A stretch of 64,000 bases of DNA, from positions 67,279 to 131,278 of the forward strand of contig NZ_KQ948153.1 of assembly GCF_001513955.1 (NCBI RefSeq), given 5' to 3'. Numbering within the stretch: the first letter of the stretch is position 1; every line of letters starts with the position of its first letter. The notes under the pieces are model-generated. The model was given only the letters and a program-made list of their open reading frames with translations. It did no database searches and was not told where the DNA came from. Position numbers and translations under genes: made by a program. Source of the stretch: Streptomyces pseudovenezuelae (GTDB lineage: Bacteria; Actinomycetota; Actinomycetes; Streptomycetales; Streptomycetaceae). Below, piece after piece: positions 5,640 to 60,378 of the stretch.

Positions 5640-7589
5640 ATGGACGCTCGCTTCACCGCCGAACAGGACGAGATCCGGCTCGCGTTGCGGGACCTGCTGC
5701 GCAGGCGGTGCGGGCCCGGGGAGTCGAGGAGCGCGGCCGACACCCCGGCCGGCTACGACCCCGAGCTGTGGACGGCCCTCGCGCGACAGCTGGGGCTGCC
5801 GGGGCTGGCCCTCCCCGAGCGGTACGGCGGGGTGGGGTGCTCGGTCACCGAGCTCGCGCTGGCCTGCGAGGAGACGGGCCGGGTACTGGCCGCCACCCCG
5901 CTGCTGGCCACGGCGGTCATCGTGGCCCCCCTGGTGCTGGCCCTGGGCACGGACGCCCAGCGCGCGGCCCTGCTGCCCCGCATCGCGTCGGGCGCCCTGA
6001 CGGCGACCCTGGCCGCACCACCGGCCACGGCCCTCGCCCTGACCGGCGACAACAGCGGCGACTGGGCCGGCGGCGGACGAGCGGGCGGAGTCCAGGCCCA
6101 CCCCGTCCACACCACGGCCCAAAGCCACACCCCCGGCCCCCACCCGACACCAACCACGGCAGACGCCCCTCCGGCGGGCGCCGCCCCCGGTGAGCCGGGT
6201 GCTGCTTCGGCGGGGCGGTCGGAGCTATCCCCGGGGGGTGCCGCGCCCGGAGGACCGGGCGCAGCCTCGGGGGGACGGTCGGGCCTTCCCCCGGTGGGTA
6301 CCGCCTCCGGAGGGTCGGGCGCTGCTTCGGTGGGGCGGTCGGAGCTCCCTTCGGGGGGTGCGGCCTCCGGAGGGTCGGGTGTTGCTTCGACGGGGCGGTT
6401 GGCCTCGGCGGGGGCGGAGGAGCCGGCGGGTGCCGTGCCCGGAGGGCCGGGCGCAGCCTTGGCTGGGCGGTCGGAGCTCCCTTCGGTGGGTGCCGCCCCC
6501 GGAGGGGCGGGTGCTGCTTCGGTCGGGCGGTCGGTCTCGGCGGGGGCGGAGGAGCCGGCGGGTGCCGTGCCCGGAGGGCCGGGCGCAGCCTTGGCTGGGC
6601 GGTCGAAGCTCCCCTCGGCGGGCGCCGCCTCCGAGGAGCCAGGTGCTGCTTCGGTGGGACGGTTGGGCTCGGCGGGGGCGGAGGAACCGGTGGGTGCCGC
6701 CTCCGGTGGGTTGGGTGCAGCCTTGGCGGGGCGGTCGGAACTTCCGTCGGCGGGTGCCGCGCGCGGAGGGTCGGGTGCGGCTTCGGTGGGAGGGGCGGAG
6801 GCCCCCTCGGCCGGTGCCGTGCCCCGAGTGCCCGGTGCTGCCCCCGCAGGGCGGTCGGCCGGGTCGGTCCCGGGTGGCGGTGGCTGGCGGCTCTACGGGC
6901 AGGTGGATCAGGTGCTCGACGGGCACAGCGCCGACCTTCTGCTGGTCGCCGCGCACGCCGGGGGGTTCGCCCGGTCCCGGACCCTTCTCTTCCTCGTCCC
7001 CGGGGACGCTCCGGGACTGGTCCGTACCCGGCAGACCGCTCTCGACGCCACTCGGCCCCAGGCCCGTGTCCAACTGCGTGACGTCGAGGCCGAACTGCTC
7101 GGGTCCGAGGACGGGGCCGATGTGCTCGGGGCGCTGGCCCGCACCGGGGACACCGCCGCCGCCGTGCTCGCCTGCGAGGCCGTCGGGGCGGCCGACAGGG
7201 TGCTGGAGACGACCGTCGAGTACGTCGGGCAGCGCGAGCAGTTCGGACGGGCGATCGGGTCGTTCCAGGCGGTCAAGCACCGGCTCGCCGATGTGTACGT
7301 CCAGCTCCAAGCGGCCCGTTCCGCCGCCTACTTCGCCGCCTGGGCCGCCGCGCACGACGAGCAGCGGGTCGGCGGGCTGGCGCTGGCCCAGGCCCTCGAA
7401 GCCCTGCGGACCGCCGCCGCCGAGGGGATCCAGCTGCACGGGGGCATCGGGTTCACCTGGGAGCACGAGGCGCAGCGGTACTTCAAGCGCGCCGCCGCGG
7501 ACGAGCTGCTCTTCGGGCCGGCGCACCGGCTGCGGGCGCACGCCGCCGACGCGGCACAGCTCTTCACGCGGGCGGAGGTGACGGTGTGA
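5640..7589 (+). CDS. Acyl-CoA dehydrogenase with repeat insertion
   Basis: An FAD-dependent acyl-CoA dehydrogenase, which introduces a 2,3-double bond into an acyl-CoA. It has 649 residues where the family usually has 350-400. Residues 1-145 are the N-terminal helical domain (MDARFTAEQDEIRLALRDLL, then ERYGGVGCSVTELALACEETG). Residues from about 414 on resume with GGGGWRLYGQVDQVLDGHS and run to the C-terminal helical domain, including QREQFGRAIGSFQAVKHRLAD and IQLHGGIGFTWEHEAQRYFK. Between them lies a Gly/Ala/Ser/Pro-rich tandem repeat of about 235 residues, at the junction with the beta domain. The frame is open throughout. The ATG at 5640 has a GGAGGGAAGAGG leader. Its last codons overlap the Ddn-like gene (GTGTGA). 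Confidence 0.85.
   Translation: MDARFTAEQDEIRLALRDLLRRRCGPGESRSAADTPAGYDPELWTALARQLGLPGLALPERYGGVGCSVTELALACEETGRVLAATPLLATAVIVAPLVLALGTDAQRAALLPRIASGALTATLAAPPATALALTGDNSGDWAGGGRAGGVQAHPVHTTAQSHTPGPHPTPTTADAPPAGAAPGEPGAASAGRSELSPGGAAPGGPGAASGGRSGLPPVGTASGGSGAASVGRSELPSGGAASGGSGVASTGRLASAGAEEPAGAVPGGPGAALAGRSELPSVGAAPGGAGAASVGRSVSAGAEEPAGAVPGGPGAALAGRSKLPSAGAASEEPGAASVGRLGSAGAEEPVGAASGGLGAALAGRSELPSAGAARGGSGAASVGGAEAPSAGAVPRVPGAAPAGRSAGSVPGGGGWRLYGQVDQVLDGHSADLLLVAAHAGGFARSRTLLFLVPGDAPGLVRTRQTALDATRPQARVQLRDVEAELLGSEDGADVLGALARTGDTAAAVLACEAVGAADRVLETTVEYVGQREQFGRAIGSFQAVKHRLADVYVQLQAARSAAYFAAWAAAHDEQRVGGLALAQALEALRTAAAEGIQLHGGIGFTWEHEAQRYFKRAAADELLFGPAHRLRAHAADAAQLFTRAEVTV
6171..6878 (+). repeat. 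In-frame tandem repeat inside acyl-CoA dehydrogenase
   Basis: About 11 degenerate copies of a roughly 20-residue unit (60 bp), alternating in part with a 25-residue form. The consensus is close to P-S-x-G-A-A-P-G-G-P-G-A-A-S-V-G-R-S-E-L, and longer units add SAGAEE. A 44-residue double unit beginning SAGAEEPAGAVPGG recurs three times (residues about 256-390). All unit lengths are multiples of three, so the reading frame is kept. Confidence 0.9.
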
Positions 7590-8056
7590 TCGGCACGAGG
7601 GTGGTGCAGAAGGTGTCGTCCACGCGCGGCTTCGCCAAGGTCGCGCCGCATGTGATCCCGGCCCTGGACCGGGCCGTGCACCGGATCACGCGGGGGAAGG
7701 TCCTGCTCAGCGCGCAGATGCTGCCCGGGGTGATCCTCACCTCGACGGGGGCGCGCAGCGGGCTGCCCCGGCGGACCCCGCTCGCCTGCATGCCCGAGGA
7801 CGACGGCCGTACCTGGATCCTCATCGGCTCCAACTTCGGCCGCGAGGGCCACCCCGCCTGGACCGCCAACCTCCTCGCCCACCCCGACGCCGAGGTCAGC
7901 TGGAAGGGCGCGGACCTCCCGGTCACGGCGACCCTGCTGACGGGGGAGGAGCGGGCGGCCGTATGGAGGACCGCGCTGGCGTTCTGGCCGCCGTACGCCA
8001 CCTACCAGGCGCGGATCGAGCGGGAGATACGGCTCTTCAGGATCGTCCGCAGATGA
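7586..8056 (+). CDS. Ddn-like deazaflavin-dependent nitroreductase family
   Basis: A 156-residue split-barrel protein of the family that includes the mycobacterial F420-dependent nitroreductase Ddn; members use reduced F420 to reduce quinones and other electrophiles. The signature is visible as LTSTGARSGLPRRTPLACMPEDDG followed by WILIGSNFGREGHPAWTANLLAHPDAEV, the usual F420-binding block. It starts at a GTG overlapping the TGA of the acyl-CoA dehydrogenase, so translation is probably coupled and the gene falls under the same operator at 5602. It may recycle or reduce intermediates in the same pathway; that is inference. Confidence 0.85.
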   Translation: MIGTRVVQKVSSTRGFAKVAPHVIPALDRAVHRITRGKVLLSAQMLPGVILTSTGARSGLPRRTPLACMPEDDGRTWILIGSNFGREGHPAWTANLLAHPDAEVSWKGADLPVTATLLTGEERAAVWRTALAFWPPYATYQARIEREIRLFRIVRR

Positions 8057-18155: not shown

Positions 18156-21100
18156 CTACACGGTGGCCGACGGCGTGAGCAGGAGCCGTACGTCGGCGGC
18201 CTCCGGAGAGCCCAGCTGCTCGAAGATGCCGAGCGCCTCCTGCCAGCACGCATGGGCCCGGCCGGACTGCCCGAGCCCGCCGAGGGCGCGGCCGAGGACC
18301 GTCAGGACGTTGCCGCGCCGCCACTCGCCGCCGATGCCCCGCAGCACGGCGAGGTGGGCCTCGGCGAGCCGGAACAGCGTCATGCCCTCCCACAGCCGCT
18401 GCCGGCTGTCGCGGAAGACCTCCAGCGCCTCCGTCAGCCGGTCCACGGCGGCGTCCAGCAGCCCCTGCCCGGTGAGCGCCAGACCCAGCGCGTACCGGCC
18501 GTTCGCGCCGCGCAGGGTGTGCCCCAGCCGGTCGTAGATGACGATGCCCTGCTGGGCGAGCTCCACGGCGCTGGTGCTCCGTCCCAGGGCCAGGTGGATA
18601 CGGGAGAGGTTGCACAGCGCGCTGGCCTCGCCCGCGAGGTTCCGGTCGAGCCGGAAGCTCTCGATGGCCTCCTTCAGATACGCTTCGCCCTCGGGGTGGC
18701 GCCCCTGGTAGAGCGCGATGATGCCGCGGTCGTTGGCGGCCCAGCAGCGGGGCGCCAGGTCGTCCGCCGCTCGGGCGAGCTGCATGGCCAGCCGGGCCTC
18801 CGCGTCCGCCTGCTCGAAGCGGCCGGCCACGAGATGGACGTTGGTGAGCGTGGTCAGCGCACGCGCGCGGCTGCGCGGGTCGTCCGCCGCGTCGGCCGCG
18901 TCCCGCAGGGCGACGGCGGCGACCTCGTACTGCTTGGAGTTGGCCCCCGACTCGGCCAGGTCCTTCGCCACCCACAGCAGGTCCACCGCGCGCCGCAGCA
19001 GGGCACCCTTCGCGCACTGCTGGACGAAGGCGAGCAGGGCGTTGGCCTCCGCGTACAGCCAGTCCTGGGCGGTGTGGCGGTCGTCGAAGGACAGGCCGGG
19101 GTAGCGGATCTCCTCCAGGTGCTCCACCAGCCGGTCCCCGGGCCGCTCGATGGCGTACACGGCCGCGGCGGTGGCCAGATAGAAGTCCAGCAACCGCGAC
19201 AGCGCCGCCTCGCGCTCACTGGGCGGCCACTCGTCGCGCTCGGCGCACGCACGCGCGTAGAGCCGGACGAGATCGTGGAACCGGTAGCGGCCGGGCGCCG
19301 CCGACTCCAGCAGCGAGGTGTCGACCAGGGCCTCCAGGAGGTCCTCGGTGTCCTCGACGGGCAGGTCCAGTACGGCGGCGGCCGCGGCCAGCGAGATGTC
19401 CGGGCCGTCGGCGAGGCCCAGCAGGCGGAACGCGCGGGCCTGGGCGGGCTCCAGCTGGCCGTAGCCGAGTTCGAAGGTGGCCTTCACGGCGAGGTCGCCG
19501 GCCTGGAGTTCGTCGAGGCGCCGGCGTTCGTCGGCGAGCTTCGCCGCGAGGACGGACACCGTCCAGGTGCGGCGGGCCGCCAGGCGGGAGGCGGCGATAC
19601 GGATGGCGAGCGGGAGGAATCCGCAGGCGGCGACCACGTCGAGGGCGGCCTTGCGCTCGGAGGCGACCCGCTCCTCGCCGACGATCCGGGTGAACAGCTG
19701 CAGTGCCTCGTCGGGGGACATGACGTCCAGGTCGACCAGGTGGGCGCCGGCGAGGTCGACCATCCGGACCCGGGAGGTCACGAGGGCCGCGCAGCCCGCC
19801 GTGCCGGGCAGCAGGGGACGTATCTGGGCCGCGTCGCGCGCGTTGTCGAGCAGGAGGAGGACCCGGCGCCCGTCCAGGACCGAGCGGTACAGGGCGGCCC
19901 GTTCCTCCAGGGAGTCGGGGATCGCGGAGTCGGCGGTGCCGAGGGCGCGGAGGAAGGCGCCGAGGACGGTTTCGGGGTCGGCGGCCCGGGCACCGGCGCC
20001 CTGGAGGTCGACGTAGAGCTGCCCGTCGGGGAAGGCGGAGCGCGCCTGGTGGGCCACGTGCACGGCCAGCGTGGTCTTGCCGACGCCGCCGATGCCGGCG
20101 AGCGCGGAGACCGCCATCACGCGGCCCTCGGAGCCGGAGGCGAGGACCTCGCTCAGTTCGGTGACGAAGGACGCGCGGCCGGTGAAGTCGGGCACGGTCG
20201 CCGGGAGTTGCGCGGGGCGGACAGGCGCGGCGACCGGTTCGGGCTGCGGGGAGGAGGGCTCCGCGAGACCGGGGTCGGCCTGGAGGATGCGCTGCTGGAG
20301 CTCGCGCAGGCCGGGGCGGGGGTCGACGCCGAGTTCGTCGGCGAGCAGCCTGCGGGTGTCGGCGTAGACCGCGAGGGCCTCGGCCTGCCGGCCGCTGCGG
20401 TACAGGGCCAGCATGAGCAGTTCCCTGAGCCGCTCGCGCAGGGGGTGCTCGGCGGTGAGCGCGGTGAGTTCGGAGACCGCCTCCGCGTGGCAGCCCTGCT
20501 CCAGGTCCATGTCCAGGCGGGATTCGAGGAGTTGCAGCCGCCACTCCTCCAGCCGCACGCGCTGTGCCTCGGCGTACGGCCCCGGCACGCCCGCGAGCAC
20601 CTCGCCGTCCCACAGGCCCAGCGCCCGGGCCAGCTGGTCCCGCGCCTGGCACAGGTCCCCGGCGCTTCTGGCCTTCTCCGCCCCGGTGGCGAGTTCCTGG
20701 GCGGCGGCGAGGTCCAGCGCGTCCTCGCCGAGTCCGCGGATCGCGTAGCCGCCGGACTCGCTGACCAGGATCCCGGGGTCGAGGATCTTGCGGAGCCGGG
20801 AGGCGTACGTGCGCACCGCGGCCAGGGCCTGCTCCGGGGGCTCCTCGCCCCACAGGGCGGAGATCAGCTCGGCGGCGGTCGCGGTGCGGCCCTCACGCAG
20901 CAGCAGGGCGGCGAGCAGGGCGCGTTGCTGGGGGGACCCGGTGGCCAGCAGTTCCTCCCCACGCCAGGCACGCACCGGCCCGAGCACACTGAACCGCAAC
21001 GACGGCACGACCGCTGCCACGGGGCTGGTGCGCGGCCCGAATCCGGTGCCGGGGCCCGTGTGCGGCCCGGCTTCCGACGCAGAGCCGGTGTGCTGTCCGG

Positions 21101-21923
21101 CTCGGGCCGCGGGGTCGGTGTCCTGACTGACATCTGCCGCGGTGGCCGTGTCCTTGCCGGGACCCGTGCGCGGCCCGAATCCCGTGCGGGGGCTGGTGTG
21201 TTGCCCGGCTCGGGCCGCGGGGCCCGTGTCCTTCCCGGCTTCCGTGGTGGAGCGCCTGTGGTGGCGGGGCGCCGCTGCGGGGTCGATGTTCTGGCCGGCC
21301 TCCGCCGCGGGGTCCGTGCCCTTGCCGGTTCCCGCCGCGGGGCTGGTGCGCGGCCCGAATCCGGTGCCGGGGCCCTTGTCCTGCCCGGCATCCGCCGCGG
21401 AGCCGGTGTGTCGCTCGGCTCGGGCCGCGGGGGCCGTGTTCATCCCGGCTTCCGTGGCGGAGGGCATGTCTCGGCCGGCTCCGGCCGCAGCGTCGCCGTC
21501 CGACCGGACCGCCGCCTCAGGGTCCGTCTCCTTGCCATTCACCGCCGTCGGACCCGTGTGGTGCCCGGCTCCGGCCGCGGCGTCGGCGTCCTGCCGGATT
21601 GCCGCCGCAGGGTTCGTGTCCTTGCCATTCACCGCCACGTGACCCGTGTGGTGCCCGGCTCCGGCCGCGGCGTCGATGTCCGACCGGACCGCCGCCTCAG
21701 GGCTCGTGTCCTCGCCAGTCACCGCCGCCGGACCCATGTGGTGCCCGGCCCCGGCCCCGGCGTCGACGTCCGACCGGATCGCCGCCGCAGGGCCCGTGTC
21801 CTCGCCGACCGCCCTCGCGGGGCCGATCCGCTGCCCGGAAGCCGCCGTTGAGCCCGTGTCCTGCCCGGCCCCCACCGGGGAGCCGGGACGCCTCTGCTCC
21901 GGCACCCGTGGTACACCGTCCAT
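18156..21923 (-). CDS. afsR: SARP-NB-ARC-TPR transcription factor AfsR, extended
   Basis: A 1255-residue global regulator. After MDGVPRVPEQRR there is a decapeptide-repeat region (about 21-303). The SARP winged-helix DNA-binding domain follows (about 307-400, from LRFSVLGPVRAW), then the BTAD domain (about 405-550), an NB-ARC ATPase with Walker A AGIGGVGKTTLA (609-620) and Walker B RRVLLLLDNA, and C-terminal TPRs (about 950-1240). AfsR is phosphorylated by AfsK and other kinases, binds DNA, hydrolyses ATP and activates afsS. S. coelicolor AfsR has 993 residues; without the repeat this protein would be close to that. The start at 21923 has a GGGGGAC leader. Internal starts in the repeat cannot be excluded. 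Confidence 0.88.
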   Translation of the reverse strand: MDGVPRVPEQRRPGSPVGAGQDTGSTAASGQRIGPARAVGEDTGPAAAIRSDVDAGAGAGHHMGPAAVTGEDTSPEAAVRSDIDAAAGAGHHTGHVAVNGKDTNPAAAIRQDADAAAGAGHHTGPTAVNGKETDPEAAVRSDGDAAAGAGRDMPSATEAGMNTAPAARAERHTGSAADAGQDKGPGTGFGPRTSPAAGTGKGTDPAAEAGQNIDPAAAPRHHRRSTTEAGKDTGPAARAGQHTSPRTGFGPRTGPGKDTATAADVSQDTDPAARAGQHTGSASEAGPHTGPGTGFGPRTSPVAAVVPSLRFSVLGPVRAWRGEELLATGSPQQRALLAALLLREGRTATAAELISALWGEEPPEQALAAVRTYASRLRKILDPGILVSESGGYAIRGLGEDALDLAAAQELATGAEKARSAGDLCQARDQLARALGLWDGEVLAGVPGPYAEAQRVRLEEWRLQLLESRLDMDLEQGCHAEAVSELTALTAEHPLRERLRELLMLALYRSGRQAEALAVYADTRRLLADELGVDPRPGLRELQQRILQADPGLAEPSSPQPEPVAAPVRPAQLPATVPDFTGRASFVTELSEVLASGSEGRVMAVSALAGIGGVGKTTLAVHVAHQARSAFPDGQLYVDLQGAGARAADPETVLGAFLRALGTADSAIPDSLEERAALYRSVLDGRRVLLLLDNARDAAQIRPLLPGTAGCAALVTSRVRMVDLAGAHLVDLDVMSPDEALQLFTRIVGEERVASERKAALDVVAACGFLPLAIRIAASRLAARRTWTVSVLAAKLADERRRLDELQAGDLAVKATFELGYGQLEPAQARAFRLLGLADGPDISLAAAAAVLDLPVEDTEDLLEALVDTSLLESAAPGRYRFHDLVRLYARACAERDEWPPSEREAALSRLLDFYLATAAAVYAIERPGDRLVEHLEEIRYPGLSFDDRHTAQDWLYAEANALLAFVQQCAKGALLRRAVDLLWVAKDLAESGANSKQYEVAAVALRDAADAADDPRSRARALTTLTNVHLVAGRFEQADAEARLAMQLARAADDLAPRCWAANDRGIIALYQGRHPEGEAYLKEAIESFRLDRNLAGEASALCNLSRIHLALGRSTSAVELAQQGIVIYDRLGHTLRGANGRYALGLALTGQGLLDAAVDRLTEALEVFRDSRQRLWEGMTLFRLAEAHLAVLRGIGGEWRRGNVLTVLGRALGGLGQSGRAHACWQEALGIFEQLGSPEAADVRLLLTPSATV
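21015..21863 (-). repeat. 30-bp tandem repeat coding decapeptides in AfsR
   Basis: About 28 copies of a 10-residue unit (30 bp) with consensus near x-D-T-G-P-A-A-x-A-G. The first half is organised as a 30-residue (90-bp) triplet, HHTGP-x-AVNG / KDTxPxAAxR / SDxDAAAGAG, repeated four times. Every unit is in frame. This precedes the DNA-binding domain. Confidence 0.9.
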
Positions 21924-42087: not shown

Positions 42088-42262
42088 AGGGCGGTGCGCC
42101 CCCGCCACGACCGCGCTGCTCCCTGGCGCTCGCCGAGCCTGCGTACGGTGGACGCTGCACCTGCCCCGCGCGCGGCCGACCGGCCGTGCCGACCCGGGCA
42201 GACCGAGCCGCCCCTGGCCGACCGGTCCCGCCCCCGCCGGGCCCGACACCGCGCTCGCCCCC

Positions 42263-42316
42263 GGCCCACCCGGCCCACCCGGCCCACCCGGCCCACCCGG
42301 CCCACCCGGCCCACCC
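42263..42316. repeat. Perfect 9-bp tandem repeat, six copies
   Basis: GGCCCACCC repeated six times without a change, followed by about 110 bp of Pro-codon-like CCC-rich DNA, in the 672-bp gap between LysR and LLM genes. Apart from the integrase remnant I see no gene in this gap. Confidence 0.9.
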
Positions 42317-42503
42317 GGGCCCCCAGCCCCAGCCCCGGTCCACCCGGTCCACCTGACCCACCCGGCCCACCCGAGCCCCCAGCTCCAGCCCCCCGCCCCC
42401 CTGCTCACCCCACCCACCCCCACACCCCAACACCCCAACAACCCCCAACGATGCCGACCAGTCGGTATGGACATCCCCGCCCCCGCCCGGTACAGATGCA
42501 GTC

Positions 42504-57338: not shown

Positions 57339-60128
57339 TCAGCCGACGCGGGTCAGCTTGTCGGTCAGACCCGGCTCGGTCAGGTCCTTCTGCAGGGTGA
57401 CCGGCACCTTGACCGCGCCGCCCTTGCCGTCACCGACGGTGAGGCTTCCGACCTTGGTGCCGGCCTTCGCGGTGTGCGGCACCTCGTCGGCGGTGAAGGA
57501 CAGCTTCACCTTGAAGCCGGCCCAGCCGACGGCGGTGACGTCCTTGGTCAGCACGACGGGGGTGTGGCCGCCGAGGCCGTCGTCCACGTATCCGACGACG
57601 TCGCCCTTCTTCAGGATCTTCGCCGACTTCAGGGCGTCCTCCGCGGCGAGCAGCGCGACCTTGCTGACGTCGTTGACGGTCTTGATGATCGGCGCCTTGT
57701 GCTGGCCGAGGATCGCGCCGACCACGGTGACGGTCTCCCCGCCGACCTCCTTGCGGGACGCGAAGAGGAGGTTGCCGCCGGCGGCGCTGGTGGTCCCGGT
57801 CTTGATGCCGATGCCGGTGTAGGGGACCAGATAGTTGTAGTTGTACCACTTCTGTCCGGACGGATCGACCCACTGTCCCATGGACGTGATCTCCATCAGC
57901 GCCGGGATCTTCACCAGCTCGTTGCCGAGCTTCACCTGGTCCTCGGCGGAGGAGACGGTGGTCTCCTTCAGGCCCGAGGCGTCGGTGTACTTCGTGTTCT
58001 TCATGCCGAGTTCCTGGGCGGTGTCGTTCATCTTCTTGATGAACGCGGCCTCGGAACCGGCGTCCCAGCGGGCGAGCAGCCGGGCGATGTTGTTGGCGGA
58101 CGGGATCATGATCGCCGCGATCGCCTGCCTCTGGGTGAGGACGTCGCCCTGCTTGACGGTGTTGAGGGTGGACTCGCCCTGCTTGTTGTAGCCGCCCTCC
58201 TTCTCGGCGAGCGCGTCGACGGTGATCTTCGGGCCCTCCGCGCCGGACTTGAGGGGGTGGTCCTTCAGGACGATGTAGGCGGTCATGGCCTTGGCCACGG
58301 AGCCGATCGCGACGGGGGTCTGCTTGCCGAAGTTCCCCATCGTGCCGACGCCGTTGACGTCCATCCAGCCCTGGCCCTGGGTGGGCCAGGGGAGGGACGC
58401 CTCGTTGCCGTCGAAGGTGTAGGAGTCCTCGGCGGTGAGGCTGAGGGTGGGGTCCGGCAGCGGACGCAGAGCCTGCGCGATCGCAAACGCGACGACCAGG
58501 AGGATGACGAGCGGGGTCCAGATCTTGACCCGGCGGCCGAGGGTGCGCAGGGGGCTGGGCGGGGGCGGCGGAGTGTTGGTGAGCTCCGCGAGCAGGTCGA
58601 GGGGCGGCTTCGGCGGCAGGGGCTGCTGCGTGGTGCGCTCCGGGCCGACCTGGGGGACGGCGGTGGTCACGTCCGGCTTCGGCCGGGGCTCGTCGAGGGC
58701 CTTCAGCGCGACGAACCGGCTCGTCCGCTCGGCGTCGGCCTCCGGCTTGGGCTTGGGCTTGGGCTCCGGCTCCGGCTCCGCTTCCGGCTCGGCCTCCGGT
58801 GTCTTGCCGAGCTTCAGCATGGTGGTGGGCTGGTCCACGGCGGGCCGGGGAGCCTTGAAGACGGCGGTGGGCTGGTCGACGGGGGGCGTGTCCTCCACGT
58901 CCGCGTCGTCCGTCCGCGAGGCGGCTCCCCGCGCCCCCGAGGGGGCCGGCTCGTCGTCTACGGCAGTCCCGGCGTCGTCGTCCTCTTCGGTGTCGCCGGC
59001 CGCCTCGGGCTCGCCGGCCCCGGCGTCCTTGCCGGAACCGTCCCCCTTGGCCACCCACGCCGCCACCGCGTCCCGCAGCCGGGCGTCCCCCACCGCGGCG
59101 GGTTCCTCCCGCTCACCGGAGCCACGAGCCCCGTCTTCGGTCGCGGGGCGCGTGTCCTCCGGGGTCTTCGCCGTGCCGGAGTCGTCCGGGCCGTCGGCGG
59201 TGTCCGTGTCGTCCGTGGTCTTGGCGTCGCCGGAGTCCTCGGGCCCCTCGGGGGTGTCGGTGTCGTCCGGGGCGTCGGCTGTGCCCGTGTCGTCCGAGTC
59301 CTCGGCCGGGCGCGCGTCCTCCGGGGCGTCCGCCGTGCCGGTGTCGTGCAAGCCGTCGGCCGTCCGGGAATCGTCCGGAGCCTTCGCCGCGCGCGGGTCC
59401 TCCGGGGCGTCCGCCGTGCCGGTGTTACCCGGGCCGTCGGCGGTGTCGGTGGCGTGCGGGGTCTCGGCCTTGCCGGAGTCCTCGGGCCCCTTGGGGGTGT
59501 CGGTGTCGTCCGGGGCGTCAGTCGTGCCCCTCGTGCCCGTGTCGTCCGAGCGCTCGGACGCGCCGGTGTCCTCCGGCGTCTCGGACGTACCGGATTCGTC
59601 CGCGCCCTCGGCGGCGCCGGAGTCCTCGGACTCCTGAGCCGTACCGGAGCCCTTCGACGCCTTCGCCGGAGCCGCGTCCTCCGGGGCGTCCGTCGGGTCC
59701 GCGTCCTCAGGGGCGTCCTCCAGGGCCGCGTCCCCCGGGCCGTCCTCCGGGACCGCATCCTCCGGGCCGGCCGGCGTGGACGTGTCGTCCGGCGTGGGCG
59801 TGTCGGCGTCCGTCGCCTCGGTGCTCCGGGCGGGCTCTGGGCGCCGCTCCGCGGCCGGAGGGGCGTCCTCGGGCTCCCCGGTGCCGGAACCGTCCGCTCC
59901 AGCCTCAGCGGGGCTCTCGCCGGCGTCCTCGGGGGTCTTCGGGAGGTCACGCACCGAGAAGACCTTCGTGGCCGTGTCGAGACCTCCGAGGGAGATGGAC
60001 TCCCGTGCCACCGCGAGCCGGGGATCGGGGGCGGAACTCCTCGCCCCGGGAACCGGACTCGCGCTCCCCGACGTCGGTTCTGCCGACGACTCGCGCTGCT
60101 TCGACCTGTCGGGGGACTCGCCCGCCAC
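57339..60128 (-). CDS. D-Ala-D-Ala carboxypeptidase with repeat-rich arm
   Basis: A 929-residue DD-carboxypeptidase (PBP5/S11 type) that trims the terminal D-Ala of peptidoglycan stem peptides outside the cell. Residues 1-535 are cytoplasmic and disordered, with a nonapeptide repeat at about 161-331 and a Pro/Glu/Lys stretch; a single transmembrane helix spans about 536-552; the enzyme domain has S-x-x-K at 610-613 (GSVAK), S-x-N at 677-679 (PSANN) and KTG in GIKTGTTSAAG. Cytoplasmic DQPTAVFK/DQPTTMLK motifs are possible phosphorylation sites. GTG at 60128 has GGAGGAGG upstream. The 250-bp gap to the divergent GPP34 gene holds both promoters. Confidence 0.9.
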   Translation of the reverse strand: MAGESPDRSKQRESSAEPTSGSASPVPGARSSAPDPRLAVARESISLGGLDTATKVFSVRDLPKTPEDAGESPAEAGADGSGTGEPEDAPPAAERRPEPARSTEATDADTPTPDDTSTPAGPEDAVPEDGPGDAALEDAPEDADPTDAPEDAAPAKASKGSGTAQESEDSGAAEGADESGTSETPEDTGASERSDDTGTRGTTDAPDDTDTPKGPEDSGKAETPHATDTADGPGNTGTADAPEDPRAAKAPDDSRTADGLHDTGTADAPEDARPAEDSDDTGTADAPDDTDTPEGPEDSGDAKTTDDTDTADGPDDSGTAKTPEDTRPATEDGARGSGEREEPAAVGDARLRDAVAAWVAKGDGSGKDAGAGEPEAAGDTEEDDDAGTAVDDEPAPSGARGAASRTDDADVEDTPPVDQPTAVFKAPRPAVDQPTTMLKLGKTPEAEPEAEPEPEPKPKPKPEADAERTSRFVALKALDEPRPKPDVTTAVPQVGPERTTQQPLPPKPPLDLLAELTNTPPPPPSPLRTLGRRVKIWTPLVILLVVAFAIAQALRPLPDPTLSLTAEDSYTFDGNEASLPWPTQGQGWMDVNGVGTMGNFGKQTPVAIGSVAKAMTAYIVLKDHPLKSGAEGPKITVDALAEKEGGYNKQGESTLNTVKQGDVLTQRQAIAAIMIPSANNIARLLARWDAGSEAAFIKKMNDTAQELGMKNTKYTDASGLKETTVSSAEDQVKLGNELVKIPALMEITSMGQWVDPSGQKWYNYNYLVPYTGIGIKTGTTSAAGGNLLFASRKEVGGETVTVVGAILGQHKAPIIKTVNDVSKVALLAAEDALKSAKILKKGDVVGYVDDGLGGHTPVVLTKDVTAVGWAGFKVKLSFTADEVPHTAKAGTKVGSLTVGDGKGGAVKVPVTLQKDLTEPGLTDKLTRVG
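59136..59648 (-). repeat. 27-bp repeat coding nonapeptides in DD-carboxypeptidase
   Basis: About 19 copies of a 9-residue acidic unit, consensus near [ED]-D-[TS]-G-T-A-[DE]-x-P (for example DDTGTADAP, EDSGTAQES), all in frame, coding the intracellular arm. Confidence 0.9.
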
Positions 60129-60378
60129 CGATGCCTCCTCCATGTGCCGCAGGTGATCGGTATCGGTCACCCTGCGTCTGCCGATCCATTGAATCGCCGC
60201 CCGGACAGCTGCCACACCACGCTGTCCGAACCGTGTACCAGTGTCCTGTGTGCGGCCCTGCCCCGAGCGGTAGACGAGAACGACATACCTACCGGTTCCA
60301 CTACAAACAGGTCACGCACCCTCGACAGACCAATGTGAGAGGGGTCACCCTGTCTTTCATCCACGCGGGGAGGCATGG

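Follow-up and report, generated by a model that had tools for sequence, protein, structure and literature searches.

Gene organization and the repeat array

The analyzed stretch of DNA, referred to below as the window, comprises 64,000 nt of the forward strand of Streptomyces pseudovenezuelae (GCF_001513955.1, contig NZ_KQ948153.1, positions 67,279-131,278). It carries a gene for a protein resembling the acyl-CoA dehydrogenases (ACADs), the 3' end of which overlaps a gene for an F420H2-dependent quinone reductase-like protein (Table 1). The ACAD-like ORF contains neither a stop nor a frameshift across its length, and its product was matched above cut-off by both an N-terminal (Acyl-CoA_dh_N, E 1.2e-19) and a C-terminal (Acyl-CoA_dh_1, E 1.2e-23) Pfam domain. 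Between these domains lies a long tandem repeat.

Table 1. Features of the ACAD-like gene and its downstream neighbor (nucleotide positions in the window; residues of the ACAD-like protein)
Feature	Position	Strand	Residues	Basis or remarks
ACAD-like gene	5640..7589	+	649 aa	Single open frame
N-terminal helical ACAD domain	5655..5993	+	6-118	Pfam PF02771; predicted helices 7-117
Hairpin strand before the insert	6090..6104	+	151-155	Predicted model
Whole insert relative to short-loop orthologues	6099..6884	+	154-415 (262 aa)	Predicted model with alignment and survey
Eleven-unit tandem array	6177..6872	+		8 units of 60 nt and 3 of 72 nt; every unit in frame
Hairpin strand after the insert	6885..6917	+	416-426 (WRLYGQVDQ...)	Predicted model; alignment to solved ACADs
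Position aligned with the IVD/LCAD-type catalytic Glu	7155..7157	+	A506	Glu in 0/76 relatives
C-terminal helical ACAD domain	7161..7550	+	508-637	Pfam PF00441
Position aligned with the MCAD-type catalytic Glu	7512..7514	+	F625	Glu in 0/76 relatives
F420H2-dependent quinone reductase-like gene	7586..8056	+		Begins with GTG, in overlap with the ACAD stop (GTGA)

The array consists of exactly eleven head-to-tail units, as the original prediction had counted, which begin at positions 6177, 6237, 6297, 6357, 6429, 6489, 6561, 6621, 6693, 6753 and 6813 and are thus spaced by either 60 or 72 nt. The units have diverged considerably, with a mean pairwise identity of 71% (range 57-95%). Tandem Repeats Finder scored the region at 255 for a period of 60 and at 665 for a period of 132 (that is, 60+72), against a threshold of 50, so the array is not a product of chance. 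The repeat DNA has a single match in the whole genome of this strain, itself, by which a mobile or dispersed repeat was ruled out.

The repeat had been estimated to add about 235 residues. This figure holds for the span 6171-6878, which encodes 236 residues, but the entire additional stretch is larger: 262 residues are present here, versus 6 at the same site in most orthologues, and the first ∼24 residues of the insert lie outside the repeat. The insert is rich in Gly, Ala, Ser and Pro, and its GC3 of 0.76 is lower than that of the flanks (0.92-0.97), as would be expected for young sequence.

Position of the insert in the predicted fold

An AlphaFold model of the protein superimposed on solved ACADs with Z scores of 40-43 over ∼360 residues, including 6wy8_A (Z 42.5, 33% identity) and 4x28_C (Z 41.5), which together with the two Pfam domains places it in the ACAD superfamily. 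Most of the core was modeled with pLDDT values above 90, while nearly all of residues 179-406 fell below 50. By this prediction, the insert is probably a disordered loop, carried on an intact ACAD fold.

Structure prediction had been proposed as a check of the original prediction; it bore out the intact core, but the place of the insert in the model differs from what had been envisaged. The repeat had been assigned to the join of the helical and beta domains. In the model, it is instead flanked by two strands of the beta domain, and in the predicted model of an orthologue with a short loop (L112) the corresponding strands (residues 154-159 and 162-173) form a tight hairpin. Since the strands match those of the hairpin, the insert is modeled as a loop extension that replaces a 6-residue beta-hairpin turn, and not as a split between domains. 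Profile alignment with the solved ACADs likewise placed it in the beta-domain turn between 'vqarr' and 'gwrl'. Location at a domain boundary was ruled out on these grounds. The turn that carries the insert is presumably solvent-facing.

Distribution of the insert among Streptomyces

When 295 Streptomyces genomes were searched, 178 matched the C-terminal half of the protein strongly, and insert length was determined between fixed motifs in 83 orthologues. Because 40 of the loci had been chosen largely on account of their long open frames, the sample is, if anything, biased toward long inserts. Of the 83 orthologues, 72 carry only 6-14 residues at the site, and most homologues thus lack the insert. 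Eight Streptomyces, including that of the window, form one clade (support 100/98), in which the loops measure 24, 24, 29, 71, 108, 122, 136 and 262 residues and the two 24-residue members branch first. Length variation among close relatives, a hallmark of coding tandem repeats, is therefore considerable in this clade. Three other sequences with long loops (17, 22 and 23 residues) branch apart from this clade, two being sisters of each other, and three changes in the tree suffice to account for all of the long loops.

A ninth close relative (L097), which was left out of the tree, has an insert of ∼284 nt. Inside this insert the reading frame is lost, at a stretch that contains a single undetermined base (N), and the break may be a fault of the draft assembly. 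In another orthologue (L119), a stop separates the N half from the C half, and the two do not share a frame.

Measured against codon-shuffled controls, the repeat unit of the window was recognizable in four of the relatives (L092, L097, L095 and L096; p 0.003-0.007), two of which, L092 and L095, possess tandem arrays of their own. In L094, L093 and L098, no occurrence of the unit exceeded such controls. Because it is undetectable in these three, it is unproved that every insert descends from a single seed unit.

Selection on the gene and coupling to the downstream reductase

The open frame itself was set aside as proof of coding, inasmuch as the GC-rich array can be read without a stop in other frames as well; selection, the clade and the overlap with the downstream gene were used as evidence instead. 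In comparisons between the window and members of the clade, dN/dS was 0.08-0.17 for the C domain and 0.15-0.38 for the N part, and both flanking domains are under purifying selection. Together with the single ORF and the Pfam matches, these values uphold the earlier claim that the frame and both flanking ACAD domains are intact. The N part of L093 showed a raised dN/dS (0.59) versus its nearest relative, L095, with a constrained C domain, possibly owing to a sequence fault.

Within the repeat, pN/pS was 0.71 in the frame of the gene and 1.36 and 0.91 in the other two forward frames, and third codon positions varied the most (p 0.046). One of the reverse frames, however, gave a value as low as that of the gene frame (0.68). 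Purifying selection on the repeat itself is at best weak and marginal.

The GTGA overlap between the ACAD stop and the reductase start was present in all seven clade members checked. It also occurs in several short-loop orthologues and is therefore not specific to the insert. The overlap suggests translational coupling of the two genes, which would penalize loss of frame, and thus may help to keep the frame through the repeat.

Catalytic residues and subunit identity

Among 76 aligned relatives, R532, Q543 and H600 are invariant and Q598, G601 and G602 nearly so. The subfamily thereby retains the R-x-QF and Q-x-HGG motifs, which, together with Q543, we take to bind the ADP part of FAD, as is familiar from the ACAD family. 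Two positions are known for the catalytic Glu of ACADs (PMC11153573), the MCAD type and the IVD/LCAD type; here they are occupied by F625 and A506, and none of the 76 relatives has a Glu at either. The original prediction had described an insert in an enzyme core; what is found is a loop on a member of a subfamily in which neither of the known positions holds the catalytic Glu.

Based on its residues, the product is probably a non-catalytic subunit. In the alpha2beta2 steroid ACADs, the Glu is borne by only one of the two subunits (PMC8399759), namely alpha, while beta contacts the ADP part of FAD (PMC11153573). The absence of the Glu and the retention of the FAD/ADP motifs fit the latter, and by analogy the protein is most likely a beta-type subunit that completes the FAD site of a partner.

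The beta-type subunits of the steroid ACADs include Tcur3481 (6wy8), ChsE5 (4x28) and IpdE2, and share with the present protein the ACAD fold and both motifs. The best match of the subfamily profile in the PDB was 6wy8_A (Tcur3481; E 3.4e-72); 4x28_D (ChsE5) was also close, and both chains, like the product of this ORF, lack Glu at the MCAD-type position. The identification of 4x28_D as ChsE5 and of 6wy8_A as the non-catalytic chain is inferred from their residues and from what is generally known of these enzymes. The present protein differs from these subunits in its 262-residue loop, in a score for the IpdE2 family (NCBIfam NF050027) of 190.4 bits against a curated cut-off of 450, and in its genomic setting. 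With the queries used, no second ACAD gene was detected in the window or within ∼6 kb of its orthologues, whereas adjacent ACADs are present beside three paralogues of the same subfamily (L002, L004 and L080). Adjacency of the alpha and beta genes is common, yet not obligatory. Because a partner ACAD was not found within this distance of the orthologues, the role as a beta subunit is not established.

Origin of the insert

Taken together, the array is best explained as a coding minisatellite that has grown in a tolerant beta-hairpin turn of an ACAD-fold protein devoid of a catalytic base, an interpretation to which we assign a probability of roughly 0.77. In the ancestor of a small Streptomyces clade, the 6-residue turn would probably have been lengthened to ∼24 residues. 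Subsequently, a GC-rich unit coding for roughly GAAPGGPGAASAGRSELPSA would have been duplicated in tandem, presumably via unequal recombination or slippage. The length attained by the loop would have differed from species to species, with eleven units in that of the window. On this view the insert is tolerated since, being attached at a turn, it does not disturb the core. Its frame is kept by selection, since the C-terminal domain, and probably also translation of the overlapping reductase gene, depend on it.

The repeat could instead have a selected function, as a tunable spacer or binding region for assembly, localization or contact with a partner, the length of which is adapted in each species. 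The frame is intact in every member of the clade with unambiguous sequence, a composition rich in Gly, Ala, Pro and Ser recurs among them, and the tandem repeats in ORFs of Borg elements, which are reportedly under strong selection, offer a precedent (PMC9879509). On the other hand, close relatives have loops of anywhere between 24 and 262 residues, the sequence is barely conserved, selection within the repeat is weak, and most orthologues have no insert at all; we consider a selected function unlikely. More doubtful still is the bolder proposal of a disordered arm on a non-catalytic ACAD subunit, adaptive and tuned in its length, which governs the choice of partner or the assembly of the complex.

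Alternatively, the repeat might mark relaxed selection on a decaying gene whose protein no longer works. The loss of frame within the insert of L097, the atypical codon usage of the insert and the missing catalytic Glu would all be in keeping with decay. The C domain, however, evolves at a dN/dS of ∼0.1, the missing Glu is common to the whole subfamily, including its ordinary short-loop members, and the break in L097 coincides with the undetermined base, so that it is possibly a fault of the draft. Decay is accordingly judged quite improbable. The array could also be an artefact of assembly, given that the draft genome consists of 32 contigs and that repeats are prone to such errors. With units only 57-95% identical, a mis-stacked copy is unlikely, and long inserts that differ from one another occupy the same site in several independent genomes, leaving very little room for this explanation. 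A dead gene and an assembly error were the two outcomes named at the outset as fatal to the original prediction; the clade survey and the selection tests argue against both, with purifying selection on the flanking domains and a frame that is kept.

Relation to known repeat-bearing proteins and other repeats in the window

The literature consulted contained nothing direct on ACADs of Streptomyces that bear repeat inserts. Events of this kind are nevertheless known. In Borg elements, amino-acid tandem repeats create disordered regions in proteins, often in extracellular or membrane proteins (PMC9879509). These repeats and the ACAD array have in common fast-changing, in-frame repetition at the DNA level and predicted disorder in an existing protein. 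In contrast to the Borg cases, the array resides in a chromosomal Streptomyces gene, its units are GC-rich and diverged, and it sits on an ACAD fold, at the turn of a hairpin; such a site, in a likely non-catalytic subunit, is unusual. The insert also resembles the low-complexity regions of prokaryotes (PMC6821194) in being a repeat-rich segment of biased composition in a bacterial protein. That survey stresses conserved regions, whereas the ACAD insert is lineage-specific and variable in length.

The orthologues provide a natural series, in one protein, of loops of 6, 24, 71, 108, 136 and 262 residues at a single hairpin turn. With this series one can readily test the amount of disordered sequence that a conserved fold will tolerate, and how in-frame minisatellites originate and grow. 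Moreover, the analysis suggests that a widespread Streptomyces gene, which domain annotation would designate an acyl-CoA dehydrogenase, encodes a non-catalytic subunit.

Additional repeats were observed elsewhere in the window. A BTAD-type regulator with NB-ARC and TPR domains (18156-21923, minus strand) has an N-terminal stretch of ∼310 residues, rich in 30-residue repeats, that precedes the DNA-binding domain. In a D-alanyl-D-alanine carboxypeptidase (Peptidase_S11; 57339-60215, minus strand), the catalytic domain is preceded by a long N-terminal repeat region rich in Asp, Thr, Ala, Pro and Glu. A GC-rich tandem repeat of short period (9 nt) is located at 42180-42421.
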